A DNA stretch of 57,170 bases from Capnocytophaga leadbetteri (GTDB lineage: Bacteria; Bacteroidota; Bacteroidia; Flavobacteriales; Flavobacteriaceae). A program made the translations under genes and the position numbers. The notes beneath the pieces are model-generated. The model made no database searches. It worked only from the letters and a program-made list of their open reading frames with translations, and was not told the origin of the DNA. Shown here one piece after another: positions 43,352-50,815 of the stretch; positions within the stretch are counted from its first letter, which is position 1; every line of letters begins with the position of its first letter. Location: contig NZ_QBKG01000014.1 of NCBI RefSeq assembly GCF_003054025.1, forward strand, positions 1 through 57,170, written 5' to 3'.

Positions 43352-44521
43352 ATGAAGAAACTTATTTTTATCGCGATGGCGATGCTTTCGGCTTTTGCAG
43401 TTACTAACTGCACACCTGACCAACAAAAAGAATTACTTGCTAAGATAGCTAACCAGACACTTAGAGGAGAAGGAGCACCTGCTCCTGAATTAGGTGTTAT
43501 TGGTAATTATTATTTCGATGAGAAGAACTCAGACCTCTATGGGCCTAAAACCGCTGAAGGTTGGGGTACCCCTGTGAGTCTTAAAGACTTTAAGGGAGCT
43601 AAGGGCGATAAAGGAGATCCTGGAGCTAATGGTACTAAAATATACACAGGCGAAGGGAAACCTTCTGATGAAATAGGAGCGATAGGTGATTGGTATTTTG
43701 ATACTAAGACTAAAACTTTCTACGGGCCTAAAACAGATAAAGGATGGGGGGATAAAACTGCTGATATATCAGGAGGACAAAATAGTATCTCATCTAATGC
43801 CTACGAACTTAGTCCTGATAAGAAAAGATTATTACGATGGTTTGATAAGAATCTTACCAAGATAGATATGCAGGCAGATAAACAGCTAAGTAAAATAAAA
43901 TCAGTAGATCCGGCTGTGTTTGAGGATTATACTACTTTGAAAGAGGTTGTGTTGCCACAAGGTCTTGAAAATATAGGTAAGGAGGCTTTTAAAGGATGTA
44001 TTTCTTTAAAGAGTATTATTATTCCTAATAATGTAATAGAAATAGGAGTAGAGGCATTTGCAGAATGTAGTAGTTTAGCTACCATAACACTATCAAATAA
44101 ATTAGGAACAATAGGTAATTATGCTTTCGCTAACTGCGATTCTTTAAAACGTATAGTCTTACCTAATAGTGTGGTAAAAATAGGTAATGGAGCTTTTGAG
44201 CACTCTAAAGCATTAGAAACAATAGAAATGTCTAATAATGTAATTTCAATAGGGGAATATGCCTTTAATGAGTGTCGTTCATTAAAAAGCATTACAATAC
44301 CTAGTAGTGTTATAAAAATAGGGAAAAATATTTTTCATCATTCAGGATTAGAATCTATTACTTTTGAAGCTACAACTCCACCAAATTTAGAAAATTTGAT
44401 AGATAGTATACATGAGGTTTCTTTTCGTTTCAATTTTACTATTTATGTACCAGCTAATAGTTTAAATGCTTATAAAAGTAGTTGGAGTTGGACAGGTTTT
44501 ACAATTAAGGCTAAAGAGTAG
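43352..44521 (+). CDS. BspA-type leucine-rich repeat lipoprotein with collagen-like segment
   Basis: 389 aa. Signal peptide ends VTNC (Cys20), so probably lipid-anchored. Two related ~30-residue modules (GVIGNYYFDEKNSDLYGPKT and GAIGDWYFDTKTKTFYGPKT) flank a short collagen-like GAKGDKGDPGANG stretch. Residues ~195-360 are LRR_5 repeats of BspA type (IGKEAFKGCISLKSIIIPNN, IGNYAFANCDSLKRIVLPNS). Such proteins are surface-exposed and often bind host or bacterial partners. It has no T9SS sorting domain. The unknown 286-aa gene follows 37 bases later. Confidence 0.92.
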   Translation: MKKLIFIAMAMLSAFAVTNCTPDQQKELLAKIANQTLRGEGAPAPELGVIGNYYFDEKNSDLYGPKTAEGWGTPVSLKDFKGAKGDKGDPGANGTKIYTGEGKPSDEIGAIGDWYFDTKTKTFYGPKTDKGWGDKTADISGGQNSISSNAYELSPDKKRLLRWFDKNLTKIDMQADKQLSKIKSVDPAVFEDYTTLKEVVLPQGLENIGKEAFKGCISLKSIIIPNNVIEIGVEAFAECSSLATITLSNKLGTIGNYAFANCDSLKRIVLPNSVVKIGNGAFEHSKALETIEMSNNVISIGEYAFNECRSLKSITIPSSVIKIGKNIFHHSGLESITFEATTPPNLENLIDSIHEVSFRFNFTIYVPANSLNAYKSSWSWTGFTIKAKE

Positions 44522-46105: not shown

Positions 46106-47710
46106 ATGAAAAAGAATATTTTATTAGCCTTATTGTCTGGGGGCTTGCTTGCTGGGTCGTGGGTTACTTATGGTTTTACTGCTCTGATATTCATTGCTTT
46201 AGTGCCTTTGTTGTTGATGGAATTGCGCGTTAGAACACGCTATCAGCACACCAAGCGGAAAGTATTTGCCCTTAGCTATTTGGCTTTTTTGGTGTGGAAT
46301 GTGCCTACTACTTGGTGGATATGGTATTCCACCCAAATAGGGGCTGTCTTTGCTATTTTGGCTAATACCTTGCTGATGACCATTACCTTTTTGTTGTATC
46401 ACCTTGTAGCTAAAAGGCTTTCAACAAAAGTATCGCTTATTTTTTTGGTCTGCATTTGGCTCTCTTTTGAGAAGTTTCACCTGTGGTGGGATGTCTCTTG
46501 GCCTTGGCTTAACTTAGGAAATGTCTTTTCTGAACAAATAACGTGGATACAATGGTACGAATATACAGGTGCTTTTGGGGGTACGCTATGGGTTTGGTTG
46601 GTGAATATAGTGCTTTTTATAGGAATAAAGGATTATTTATCGGATAAAAACCGTCCGCTACTTGCCAAAAGAGTAGGAGGGGCGACCCTTCTATTTGCTG
46701 TGCCGGTGCTTATTTCGTATTTTCAATACCAAAACTACTCCGAAGAGGGCAAAAAGACTATTAAAGCTATTGCTTTGCAGCCTAATATCGACCCTTATCA
46801 AGAGAAATATGACTTTAGTAATGCTAAAGTAGCGCAATTATTAGTACAATTGGCTGAGGTAAAGATGGATAAAGAAGTGAATTTTATCGTTACTCCTGAG
46901 ACTGTGTTTGCTGATAATGTGAAGTTGCAAGAACTGCCTTATACCCAAGAGGTGGCTATATTGCGCACTTTGGTATATCGCTATCCTCAGCTCAATTGGG
47001 TAGGGGGTACTGCTATGATTGAGTTCATTACTGATAAGGCGCGTACTACCTTGCAAAGCAACTACTTACCCCAATATAATATATGGTACAATGATTACAA
47101 CTCGGCTTTTCTGCTTAATAGTCGCCCTGAAGTGCCTTTGTATCACAAGAGTAAGTTAGTGGTAGCAGTAGAGAACTTCCCTTATCAGCAAGTGCTAAAG
47201 CCTATATTAGGCGAGACGCTAATCAATTTGGGTGGCACTGTGGCGCTTAAGACTACTCAGCCGGAGCGCACTGCTTTTGCAGGGGTAGGGACTGAGGGTA
47301 AAGCGGCACCTATCATTTGCTACGAGACGATTTATGGAGAGTTTGTAACCGATTATATCAAGAAAGGAGCTAACTTTTTGGCTATTCTCACTAACGATGC
47401 GTGGTGGCGCAATACGCAGGGACACAAGCAGTTGCTCAGCTATACTCGTTTGCGTGCTATTGAGACGCGCCGTAGTGTAGTGCGCAGTGCCAATACGGGT
47501 ATTTCGGCATTTATTAATGGTCGTGGCGAGGTACTGCAAACTCTACCCTATGGTGTGCAAGGCAGTCTGAAAGGCACTATTGCCCTTAATGAAGAAGTAA
47601 CTTTTTACGTGCGTATGGGCGATTACCTTGCGCGCATTGCGTATTTCTTGGCATTTTTTATTTTTTTAAGTGCTGTAGTAAAGCGCAGAGGGTTACTATC
47701 AAAGAACTAA
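46106..47710 (+). CDS. lnt: apolipoprotein N-acyltransferase
   Basis: 534 aa. Adds the third acyl chain to lipoproteins. N-terminal half has ~6 membrane helices (LLALLSGGLLAGSW, ALIFIALVPLLLMELR, AVFAILANTLLMTITFLLYH and others), one more at the C-terminus. The periplasmic nitrilase domain has Glu265 (TPETVF), Lys348 (YHKSKLV) and Cys405 (IICYETIYGE). First gene of lnt, HutH-like, fhs. Confidence 0.95.
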   Translation: MKKNILLALLSGGLLAGSWVTYGFTALIFIALVPLLLMELRVRTRYQHTKRKVFALSYLAFLVWNVPTTWWIWYSTQIGAVFAILANTLLMTITFLLYHLVAKRLSTKVSLIFLVCIWLSFEKFHLWWDVSWPWLNLGNVFSEQITWIQWYEYTGAFGGTLWVWLVNIVLFIGIKDYLSDKNRPLLAKRVGGATLLFAVPVLISYFQYQNYSEEGKKTIKAIALQPNIDPYQEKYDFSNAKVAQLLVQLAEVKMDKEVNFIVTPETVFADNVKLQELPYTQEVAILRTLVYRYPQLNWVGGTAMIEFITDKARTTLQSNYLPQYNIWYNDYNSAFLLNSRPEVPLYHKSKLVVAVENFPYQQVLKPILGETLINLGGTVALKTTQPERTAFAGVGTEGKAAPIICYETIYGEFVTDYIKKGANFLAILTNDAWWRNTQGHKQLLSYTRLRAIETRRSVVRSANTGISAFINGRGEVLQTLPYGVQGSLKGTIALNEEVTFYVRMGDYLARIAYFLAFFIFLSAVVKRRGLLSKN

Positions 47711-47726
47711 AGAAGCTATTATAGAG

Positions 47727-49124
47727 ATGGTACATTATATTTCTAATGAAGTACTCCTTTTGGAGCAGTTAGATACAATTATCAATACTGATGTGAAGCT
47801 CAAACTCTCTGAAGAGGCGGTGCTAAACATCGAAAAGTGTCATACTTTCTTCACTGAAAAGGTGAAAGATAGCTCATTGACCGAGGCCACGGAGCAGCAC
47901 TACACCCAATTGAGGCATTATGCTTGTGGAATAGGCGAGCGCCTGCCTTGCAAGTTAGTGAGGATAATGCTGTTTCTGAAAATTCAATCCTTTTCGTATG
48001 GATTTAGTGGGGTGCGTCTTGCTTTAGTACAGCGTCTTATTGATTTCTTCAACAGTGGGGTATACCCAGTGGTTTATTCTAAGGATATTCCTGATGAGCG
48101 CATCGCATTAGCACATCTCTCACTACCTCTGATAGGCGAAGGCGAGGTATGCATACAAAACAAAATCTATTCTGCGCAAGAGTTGGCTTCAAAATATGGT
48201 TGGGAGCCCTTACCTCTTAGTCAGCGTGAGGTAGATGCGTTGCTCAACGGCACGCAACTTACCACAGCCTATAGTGCGCACAACCTTATTGAGTCGCTTA
48301 AGCTTATAGAGTGGGCGGACTTTGTAGCTTCAGTTTCTACTCAAGTGTTTGGTGGCAATCTATCGGCTTTCTCAGAACTGATGCAGGTAGTACGCCCTCA
48401 CAAGGGGTTAGTAGAGACGGCACAGCACCTCCGCACGCTACTAAAAGACAGTACATTAGTAGATAGTCCTGAAGATTTTCAGAGTATGCCAGAAGCTTTC
48501 TGCTCTATTCCTCAGATACACGGAGCTGTACGCGAGGCTATTGCTGCTATTCGCAAGGTAGTAAAAACCGAGATAAACTCTGTAACCGATAACCCTATTC
48601 TCTTTCCTGAACAAGGCGAAATTATCTTTGGGGGCAACTCGCATACGTTACCTCTTTCCCTAAGTATGGATTTTCTCAGTATCACGCTCACCAGCTTAGG
48701 CAACATCTCCGAACGCCGTGTGTTTTACTTGCTTTCCAATGTTGGGAAAGATATAGAAACAGAGATTGATTACCCTATATTTCAGCGTATTATAGAGGGA
48801 ATACTCAATGAAAACCGCCGCCTTTCTACGCCTTCTAGCATAGAAAGTCCTATACTCTTTGAAAAAACGATAGATATAAAAGGGATGGGTGGTAGTTCGG
48901 CTATCAAATGCTCTCAAATAGTCAAAAATGTGATACAAATCATTGCTATTGAGCTTATCTTAGCTACTTCACTTTGGAAAAAGAAACCTCTTCGTTATCA
49001 TTCTTCTATATTTAAAGATTATCTTGATTTTATAGCAGAGGAAGGTAGCACAACTACACTTAAAAAGAATATTGAACAAACGCTACAGTTTTTCAATCAG
49101 TATAGAGAAAAAGTAGAAGATTAA
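47727..49124 (+). CDS. HutH/PAL-family protein without the MIO group: probable pseudoenzyme
   Basis: 465 aa, about 40 shorter than histidine ammonia-lyase. The fold is plain: RHYACGIGERLPCKLVRIML, YGFSGVRLALVQRLIDFFNS, LAHLSLPLIGEGEV, ALLNGTQLTTAY, SVTDNPILFPEQGEIIFGGN. Yet every catalytic piece known from bacterial HutH is gone. The MIO-forming Ala-Ser-Gly before LAHL is replaced by DIPDERIALAHL (residues 120-131), the Tyr of the TGFG loop is deleted, the DPYSLRCQPQ segment reads EAFCSIPQ, and the QEDH Glu is absent. It cannot work as a normal lyase. It is intact, 16 bases after lnt and 17 before fhs. It may be a regulator, a scaffold or an enzyme with new chemistry. Confidence 0.85.
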   Translation: MVHYISNEVLLLEQLDTIINTDVKLKLSEEAVLNIEKCHTFFTEKVKDSSLTEATEQHYTQLRHYACGIGERLPCKLVRIMLFLKIQSFSYGFSGVRLALVQRLIDFFNSGVYPVVYSKDIPDERIALAHLSLPLIGEGEVCIQNKIYSAQELASKYGWEPLPLSQREVDALLNGTQLTTAYSAHNLIESLKLIEWADFVASVSTQVFGGNLSAFSELMQVVRPHKGLVETAQHLRTLLKDSTLVDSPEDFQSMPEAFCSIPQIHGAVREAIAAIRKVVKTEINSVTDNPILFPEQGEIIFGGNSHTLPLSLSMDFLSITLTSLGNISERRVFYLLSNVGKDIETEIDYPIFQRIIEGILNENRRLSTPSSIESPILFEKTIDIKGMGGSSAIKCSQIVKNVIQIIAIELILATSLWKKKPLRYHSSIFKDYLDFIAEEGSTTTLKKNIEQTLQFFNQYREKVED

Positions 49125-49141
49125 GAAATAAATAAAATTTA

Positions 49142-50815
49142 ATGTTTATGACTGACTTAGAAATCGCCCAAAAGGCACAAATGCTTCCTATTAGAGAGGT
49201 AGCCAAGAAACTAAATATTAGTGAGGACGACCTCGACCCTTATGGCAAGTATAAAGCGAAACTACCCCTGCATCTTATCAATGCTGAGAAGATGAAAAAT
49301 AGCAAGTTAGTACTCGTTACTGCTATTACTCCTACCCCTGCAGGCGAGGGCAAAACTACTGTCAGCATCGGGCTTACAGAGGGGCTCAACAAGGTAGGCA
49401 AAAAAGCTATAGCCGTACTGCGCGAACCTTCTTTAGGGCCTGTATTTGGTATCAAAGGCGGAGCCGCTGGCGGTGGCTATTCGCAAGTAGTGCCTATGGA
49501 AGACATCAATCTACACTTCACAGGCGACTTTTCGGCTATTGAGAAGGCTAATAATCTTCTTTCAGCGGTTATTGACAATAATATACAAAGCAAAACCCAC
49601 AGCATCGGTATCGACCCGCGCACTGTAGTTTGGAAGCGCGTAATGGATATGAACGACCGCGCTCTCCGTCATATAGTGGTTGGCTTAGGGGGCAGCACTC
49701 ACGGTATACCTCGCGAAGATGGTTTTAATATCACTCCTGCTTCCGAGATTATGGCGATATTATGCCTCTCAGAGAACTTTTCTGACCTCAAAAGGCGTAT
49801 AGGCAATATCTATGTAGGCAAGAAGTTCGATGGCACTCCTGTTTTTGCACGCGACCTTAAGGTAGTGGGGGCTATGGCACTCTTGCTCAAAGAAGCTATC
49901 AAACCTAACCTTGTACAAACGCTTGAGAATAATCCCGCTATCCTACACGGTGGCCCTTTTGCTAGCATAGCGCAAGGTACAAACACGGTATTGGCTACCA
50001 AAATGGGGCTTTCATTAGGCGATTATGTAGTTACCGAAGCGGGCTTTGGGGCAGACCTCGGGGCAGAGAAATTCCTTAATATCAAATGTGTATCAGCAGG
50101 CTTAGCCCCTGATGCCGTGGTAGTGGTAGCTACTATTCGCGCGTTGCGTCATCACGGAGGCGCTAAAAAAGAGGAATACAACACTCCCGACTTGCAAAAA
50201 GTGAAACTTGGTATTGCTAATTTAGAAAAGCACATCGAAAATGTGCAACACTTCGGACTCAAAGCAGTAGTAGCCATTAACTATTTCCCACACGATAGTG
50301 AGGAGGAGATTGCTTATGTAAAAGAAGTATGTGCCAAAAAAGGGGTAGAAGCAGTGGTTAGCAAAGGCTTTAGTGAAGGAGGTAAGGGCACTGAAGAGCT
50401 TGCTCGTGCTGTAGTAGCCATTGCTGAAAGCGGCGAAAGTCATTTCGCGCCATTGTACTCTCACCAGGCAAGCATAGAGGATAAGATAACTACCGTAGCT
50501 ACTAAGATATATGGGGCAAGCAAAGTGAATTACAGCAGCAAAGCCCTTAGCCAGCTTAAGCAGATAAACAAGTTAGGCTTTGATAAATTACCGGTTTGTA
50601 TCGTCAAGACGCCCAAATCACTCAGCGATGACGAGAAAAAGCTCGCACGCCCTACTGATTTCGAGGTAACGGTACGCGAGTTTGAGTTCGCATCAGGGGC
50701 AGGCTTTGTAATCCCTATTTTGGGTGATACCGTTCGTATGCCGGGCTTACCTAGCGTACCCGCTGCCGAAGGTATGGATATAGATGATGAGGGCATCATC
50801 TCCGGACTCTCTTAA
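49142..50815 (+). CDS. fhs: formate-tetrahydrofolate ligase
   Basis: 557 aa, standard length. Makes 10-formyl-THF from formate, THF and ATP. P-loop TPTPAGEGKTTVSIGL, then LREPSLGPVFGIKGGAAGGG, DMNDRALRHIVVGLGG and FVIPILGDTVRMPGLPSVPA at the C-terminus. Third gene of the lnt operon, next to the HutH-like gene; a link to C1 units from histidine breakdown is tempting, but the HutH-like protein lacks its active site and no other hut gene is present. A terminator follows. Confidence 0.97.
   Translation: MFMTDLEIAQKAQMLPIREVAKKLNISEDDLDPYGKYKAKLPLHLINAEKMKNSKLVLVTAITPTPAGEGKTTVSIGLTEGLNKVGKKAIAVLREPSLGPVFGIKGGAAGGGYSQVVPMEDINLHFTGDFSAIEKANNLLSAVIDNNIQSKTHSIGIDPRTVVWKRVMDMNDRALRHIVVGLGGSTHGIPREDGFNITPASEIMAILCLSENFSDLKRRIGNIYVGKKFDGTPVFARDLKVVGAMALLLKEAIKPNLVQTLENNPAILHGGPFASIAQGTNTVLATKMGLSLGDYVVTEAGFGADLGAEKFLNIKCVSAGLAPDAVVVVATIRALRHHGGAKKEEYNTPDLQKVKLGIANLEKHIENVQHFGLKAVVAINYFPHDSEEEIAYVKEVCAKKGVEAVVSKGFSEGGKGTEELARAVVAIAESGESHFAPLYSHQASIEDKITTVATKIYGASKVNYSSKALSQLKQINKLGFDKLPVCIVKTPKSLSDDEKKLARPTDFEVTVREFEFASGAGFVIPILGDTVRMPGLPSVPAAEGMDIDDEGIISGLS

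Follow-up and report, generated by a model that had tools for sequence, protein, structure and literature searches.

Enzymes that carry the 4-methylideneimidazole-5-one (MIO) group, among them histidine ammonia-lyase (HAL, encoded by hutH), are a classic example of catalysis that depends on a cofactor formed by the protein itself. Ergothionase is related to these enzymes but has no MIO, and it releases trimethylamine from ergothioneine (PMC13405746), so that loss of MIO alone does not mean loss of catalysis. Here we analysed a gene in a 57,170-nucleotide stretch of Capnocytophaga leadbetteri DNA (the window; contig NZ_QBKG01000014.1, assembly GCF_003054025.1), whose product is a HutH relative without the MIO-forming Ala-Ser-Gly (ASG). 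The comparisons show that, in the lineage of Capnocytophaga, a genus of oral bacteria, the flavobacterial hutH was stripped of the MIO motif and of almost every catalytic residue, and that the gene has remained under strong purifying selection. It appears to be a functional protein whose role has changed, not a decaying gene: the predicted fold is kept over ~465 residues, the catalytic positions are replaced or lost as a set, and new residues are fixed among orthologues down to ~50% identity. Active HutH relatives, the MIO-less ergothionase and the Capnocytophaga family thus offer a natural series for how an enzyme becomes something else. The finding, already made in a first-pass annotation, is real and better supported than from reading the sequence alone. 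A search by title or abstract start, with most subscription papers outside its reach, returned no paper on this protein.

The MIO-less protein is by sequence a member of PF00221 (Lyase_aromatic), with 310.5 bits against a gathering cut-off of 27.3, which agrees with its earlier assignment to the relatives of HutH and phenylalanine ammonia-lyase with an open 465-codon frame. Scores for more specific families fall below their cut-offs: 272.6 bits for TIGR01225 (hutH), half of the equivalog cut-off of 539.15, and 181.9 bits for NF053541 (FlxA tyrosine ammonia-lyase), compared to a cut-off of 700. HAL of Pseudomonas putida aligns with the MIO-less protein over residues 63-413, and the gene is the sole match to its own product in the 2.64-Mb genome. 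With HutH (TIGR01225, PF00221, P. putida HAL 1b8f and the flavobacterial proteins) it has in common the modelled fold, an N-terminal HYIS and the motifs GTQ, IPQ[IV]HGA, TDN, GN-H and ERR. By contrast, the MIO-less family has neither ASG nor MIO, lacks the Tyr loop, and has replaced His83, Tyr280, Phe329 and Glu414 in 15/15 orthologues and Arg283 in 14/15.

For the comparison of sites, the 15 Capnocytophaga orthologues were aligned with flavobacterial HutH proteins, taken as the best 27 of 253 matching genomes outside the genus, 23 of which entered the site counts; positions follow P. putida HAL, with residue numbers that we take to be those of the literature. The lid loop is present as YG[IV]NTG in 27/27 flavobacterial HutH, and these likewise all carry [AST]SGD, the YG loop and QEDH. 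In the present protein the letters aligned with Ala-Ser-Gly are I-P-D. Among the orthologues the Ala142 site holds Ile, Thr, Ala, Asn or Ser, while Pro and Asp occupy the Ser143 and Gly144 sites in all 15. Similarly, the Tyr280 site is Glu in every orthologue, the Arg283 site is variable (Cys in 9/15, Arg in 1/15), the Gln277 site is variable too, and the Glu414 site is Ile, Thr or Phe, with Ile382 in the present copy. None of Tyr53, His83, Tyr280, Arg283, Phe329 and Glu414 remains in this protein, and among the orthologues Arg283 alone recurs, once. Of eleven catalytic positions, five have settled on a new residue, and the other six are drifting or gone (Table 1). The first-pass annotation had all catalytic elements lost, which holds for the Tyr53 loop, His83, ASG, Tyr280, Arg283, Phe329 and Glu414; it is slightly too strong, because the equivalent of Asn195 is kept here and in some orthologues.

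Table 1. Coordinates of the gene, its neighbours and its remodelled sites in the window.
Feature	Position	Strand	Remark
MIO-less HutH-derived gene	47727..49124	+	ATG start, 465 aa, no internal stop
lnt, apolipoprotein N-acyltransferase, upstream neighbour	46106..47710	+	PF20154 and PF00795
fhs, formate-tetrahydrofolate ligase, downstream neighbour	49142..50815	+	named by the first-pass annotation only
Variable linker, residues 45-61, at the HutH Tyr53 lid-loop (YGINTGFG) site	47859..47909	+	13-36 aa, unconserved among 15 orthologues
Tyr65 at the HAL His83 site	47919..47921	+	Tyr in 15/15 orthologues, His in 23/23 HutH
Residues 120-126 (DIPDERI) in place of MIO-forming GASGDLA	48084..48104	+	3 residues shorter; P122, D123, R125, I126 invariant in 15/15
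Asn174, equivalent to Asn195	48246..48248	+	Asn in this copy and in 7/15 orthologues; Gly, Thr or Val in 8/15
Residues 253-259 (SMPEAFC) in place of QDPYSFR	48483..48503	+	Glu256 at Tyr280 site, Cys259 at Arg283 site
Residues 305-308 (SHTL) in place of FHGQ	48639..48650	+	Ser305 at Phe329 site; S305, T307, L308 in 15/15
Residues 379-390 (EKTIDIKGMGGS) in place of NGQEDHVSMGAN	48861..48896	+	new invariant K385-G386, G389-S390

Orthologues occur in 15/20 genomes of the genus at 50-79% identity, and all 15 are open across their full length of 461-488 aa. ASG is absent from the MIO position of every copy (2/15 orthologues contain the letters, but only elsewhere, in a YASGVG stretch) and no frame is broken, which supports the earlier proposal of a conserved new role as opposed to decay. 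The DIPDER-type segment is conserved as well, in the form PD[DE]RI[AS]LA, in 15/15; a search with this pattern across 395 genomes of the order gave two matches, the source genome and a short unrelated frame. Among the 80 loci listed by a genome scan, SGD occupies the MIO position in 77; the other three, all from Capnocytophaga, lack it. The ratio of nonsynonymous to synonymous substitution rates (dN/dS, Nei-Gojobori) is 0.056, 0.062, 0.065, 0.071 and 0.060 in five unsaturated orthologue pairs, about 0.06 and indicative of purifying selection, three of eight orthologue pairs and one of four paralogue pairs having been left out for saturated dS. The corresponding values are 0.060-0.108 for an ASG-bearing paralogue of the genus, in three of four pairs, and 0.014-0.044 for fhs in the same five pairs.

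Further analysis located where the new constraint lies. Among 235 positions that are near-invariant in HutH and present in the MIO-less protein, 27 are near-invariant in both groups but switched in the MIO-less orthologues. The switched sites gather within five residues of a catalytic position (17/62, compared to 10/173 elsewhere, p=2.2e-5), and clustering also appears at widths of 2, 3 and 8 residues (p = 0.0016, 2.3e-5 and 3.1e-5). It persists when only changed positions are counted (17/33 near catalytic sites and 10/65 elsewhere, p=0.00028), and when HutH columns are counted with deletions included (p = 0.0024, 5.2e-5, 5.3e-5 and 7.5e-5 at widths 2, 3, 5 and 8); the first catalytic windows (19/67 and 8/168) had been drawn after sight of the switched sites, and these later counts used fixed widths. 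As a control, 13 intact paralogues of the genus showed no clustering at any width in the HutH-column count (p 0.32-0.68), although they are an imperfect yardstick because they branch off further away and have 85 switched sites in all, compared to 27. A merely tolerated protein would be expected to loosen at its old active site, whereas the MIO-less protein has acquired a new fixed set at this place.

In a tree of 60 proteins, built by a quick search with no bootstrap, the 15 orthologues form one clade (Shimodaira-Hasegawa-like approximate likelihood ratio support 100) whose stem is 1.85 changes per site long, and the neighbour of this clade is the group of 27 flavobacterial HutH, with support of 97. 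On an fhs tree of 19 genomes (one of the 20 genus genomes has no fhs match), the presence pattern of the MIO-less gene needs two changes, which fits an early presence in the genus and two losses. The next genes of histidine degradation were looked for in the same 20 genomes: urocanase (hutU) was found in none, compared to 47 over the cut-off in the rest of a 60-genome family sample (58 genomes), and hutI in none over the cut-off, with weak short matches in 8/20. The most straightforward interpretation is that the genus gave up histidine degradation and retained the first gene of the pathway for another role. Automatic naming is at risk here, as such genes can receive histidine or aromatic amino acid lyase labels where the pathway is gone. 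Separately, genome G300 stands beside G252 on fhs trees (loci L171 and L172), yet with G313 in the tree of the MIO-less gene (L042 and L041), a discordance that may point to transfer of either the MIO-less gene or fhs.

Among described structures, ergothionase of Treponema denticola (PDB 6s7j and 6s7q), whose sequence was reached through a plasmid-borne relative, ranked 15th in a PDB search with a fragment and shares 20% identity with the MIO-less protein in structural alignment (6s7j). Together with the plasmid proteins L180, L182 and L183 it resembles the MIO-less protein in lacking the MIO motif and in the HAL fold, solved for 6s7j. They differ at the remaining catalytic motifs: the YGL loop, [SA]H, QDPLSFR and ED are present in 4/4 ergothionase-like rows and not kept by the Capnocytophaga family (three rows compared), and membership in ergothionase was rejected on these motifs. 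Two further MIO-less plasmid proteins, L181 and L184, likewise have the YG loop, the ED pair, an SH or AH histidine and a segment that reads QD-x-x-x-(F/L)-R or similar and ends in Arg, unlike the Capnocytophaga rows. A joint clade with ergothionase is not rejected by the approximately unbiased test (p 0.357 with 21 rows, 0.366 with 19 rows), both trees carrying long-branch warnings. The sequences compared give the MIO-less HAL-fold protein a precedent in ergothionase, but a replacement of the catalytic set that is its own and more complete. Within the genus, a paralogue found in 13/20 genomes, called a FlxA-like tyrosine ammonia-lyase by resemblance, belongs to the same superfamily and has 28-32% identity to the MIO-less protein; it keeps ASGD in 13/13 and the catalytic residues at 10/11 positions, with Glu414 changed to Gln. 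Fumarase and argininosuccinate lyase-type proteins reach 7-9% identity, over partial coverage.

The plasmid genes deserve mention in their own right. L184:1270-2799, on Klebsiella pneumoniae plasmid NZ_CP056433.1 (the one record examined of 197 Klebsiella plasmid records matched), is annotated as an aromatic amino acid ammonia-lyase and has GSVGYLIATAH with no Ala-Ser-Gly. It keeps the YG loop, SHA, QDALSLR and QEDH, its neighbours are a HutD family gene, hutC and ATP-binding cassette transporter genes, and by analogy with ergothionase the protein might act on a trimethylated histidine. On plasmids of Sinorhizobium, Burkholderia and Paraburkholderia, L179, L180, L182 and L183 have GS[VIM]G[EQ]AD[IM]T instead of ASG and hydrophobic N-termini resembling signal peptides; the best PDB match of L183 is ergothionase, and L180 is annotated as hutH/histidine ammonia-lyase. 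L181:2252-3823, on a plasmid of Deltaproteobacteria bacterium Smac51, is also MIO-less (GSVGYLAVEGH) and annotated as histidine ammonia-lyase, and it adjoins a sodium:solute symporter.

We tentatively favour, at somewhat less than even chances, the reading that the MIO-less protein acts by binding and not as an ammonia-lyase. We propose that a HAL-type tetramer would still form, and that its old catalytic site, with no Tyr-loop cover and re-lined with charged and Gly/Ser/Lys residues, would bind a different ligand through the refixed set (Tyr65, Pro122-Asp123-x-Arg125-Ile126, Glu256, Ser305-x-Thr307-Leu308 and Lys385-Gly386-x-x-Gly389-Ser390). The Gly/Lys/Ser-rich loop 385-395 and Arg125 suggest that this ligand is probably anionic or zwitterionic, and the protein could serve as a metabolite sensor, a regulator or a partner-binding pseudoenzyme. 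A less likely alternative makes it an MIO-free enzyme, whose re-lined pocket eliminates a good leaving group as ergothionase does, or performs other chemistry with Tyr65, Glu256 and Lys385 as acid/base. Ergothionase itself is the precedent, yet its relatives retain the very motifs that the Capnocytophaga family has given up, the loop bearing the catalytic Tyr base is here an unconserved linker, and the best tree places the family with flavobacterial HutH (support 97). It is likewise rather unlikely that the HAL fold has here given rise to MIO-free catalysis a second time, independently; such an enzyme would use the open pocket, Tyr65, Glu256 and Lys385 as acid/base and Arg125/Asp123 on a substrate new to the superfamily, dispensing with the Tyr loop common to the MIO and MIO-free members compared.

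It is less probable still that the protein is a pure scaffold, a HAL-fold tetramer serving as a structural or protein-partner platform in which the refixed residues merely stabilise remodelled loops. In the model, helices begin at P-D-[DE]-R and P-E-A-F, the lid is gone and the Asn195, Arg283 and Glu414 sites drift, as a scaffold would allow; against this, refixation is concentrated near the catalytic positions, whereas constraint on surfaces is what one would expect of a scaffold. A decaying pseudogene is very improbable: the gene is absent from 5/20 genomes, needs two changes on the fhs tree and evolves faster than fhs at the protein level (dN higher in all five unsaturated pairs), but every copy is open and full length, dN/dS is low and the new invariants are held in common.

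Several points weigh against the ligand-binding reading. More than half of the eleven catalytic positions drift or are lost instead of being refixed, and residues become fixed more easily inside one genus than across families. The refixed sites could have a structural role, because residues 124-136 and 256-259 are helical in the model, where P-D-[DE]-R and P-E-A-F resemble helix caps that tidy a remodelled loop. The model, which has a HAL fold, leans towards HAL because its alignment held 23 HutH rows; as a monomer it does not display the inter-subunit pocket, and the predicted local distance difference test score is below 50 for the stretch 375-380, where new charged residues lie. The control for clustering is a distant branch, as said above. 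Absence from a quarter of the genomes makes the gene dispensable, and its neighbours give no functional hint because their order is not conserved.

In the source genome the MIO-less gene lies on one strand with its neighbours, separated from lnt upstream by 16 nt and from fhs downstream by 17 nt. The tight placement noted in the first pass therefore stands, but the exact lnt-gene-fhs order with nothing between recurs in just 2/15 genomes, and a conserved operon was rejected as a clue to function. Singly, lnt is directly upstream in 3/15 and fhs directly downstream in 3/15. A lipoprotein-like L,D-transpeptidase (YkuD) gene is directly downstream in 6/15 (L143:6257-7936 and relatives L144-L148); one of these six proteins was scanned against Pfam and has YkuD, scaffold and peptidoglycan-binding domains. 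The first-branching genomes of the gene tree (G313 and G300) have no lnt, fhs or YkuD gene adjoining. For flavobacterial HutH, neighbour regions were covered at 6 of 27 loci. Elsewhere in the window, the translation of 43352-44521 looks like a lipoprotein in which a short collagen-like GAKGDKGDPGANG stretch precedes leucine-rich repeats of BspA-like appearance.
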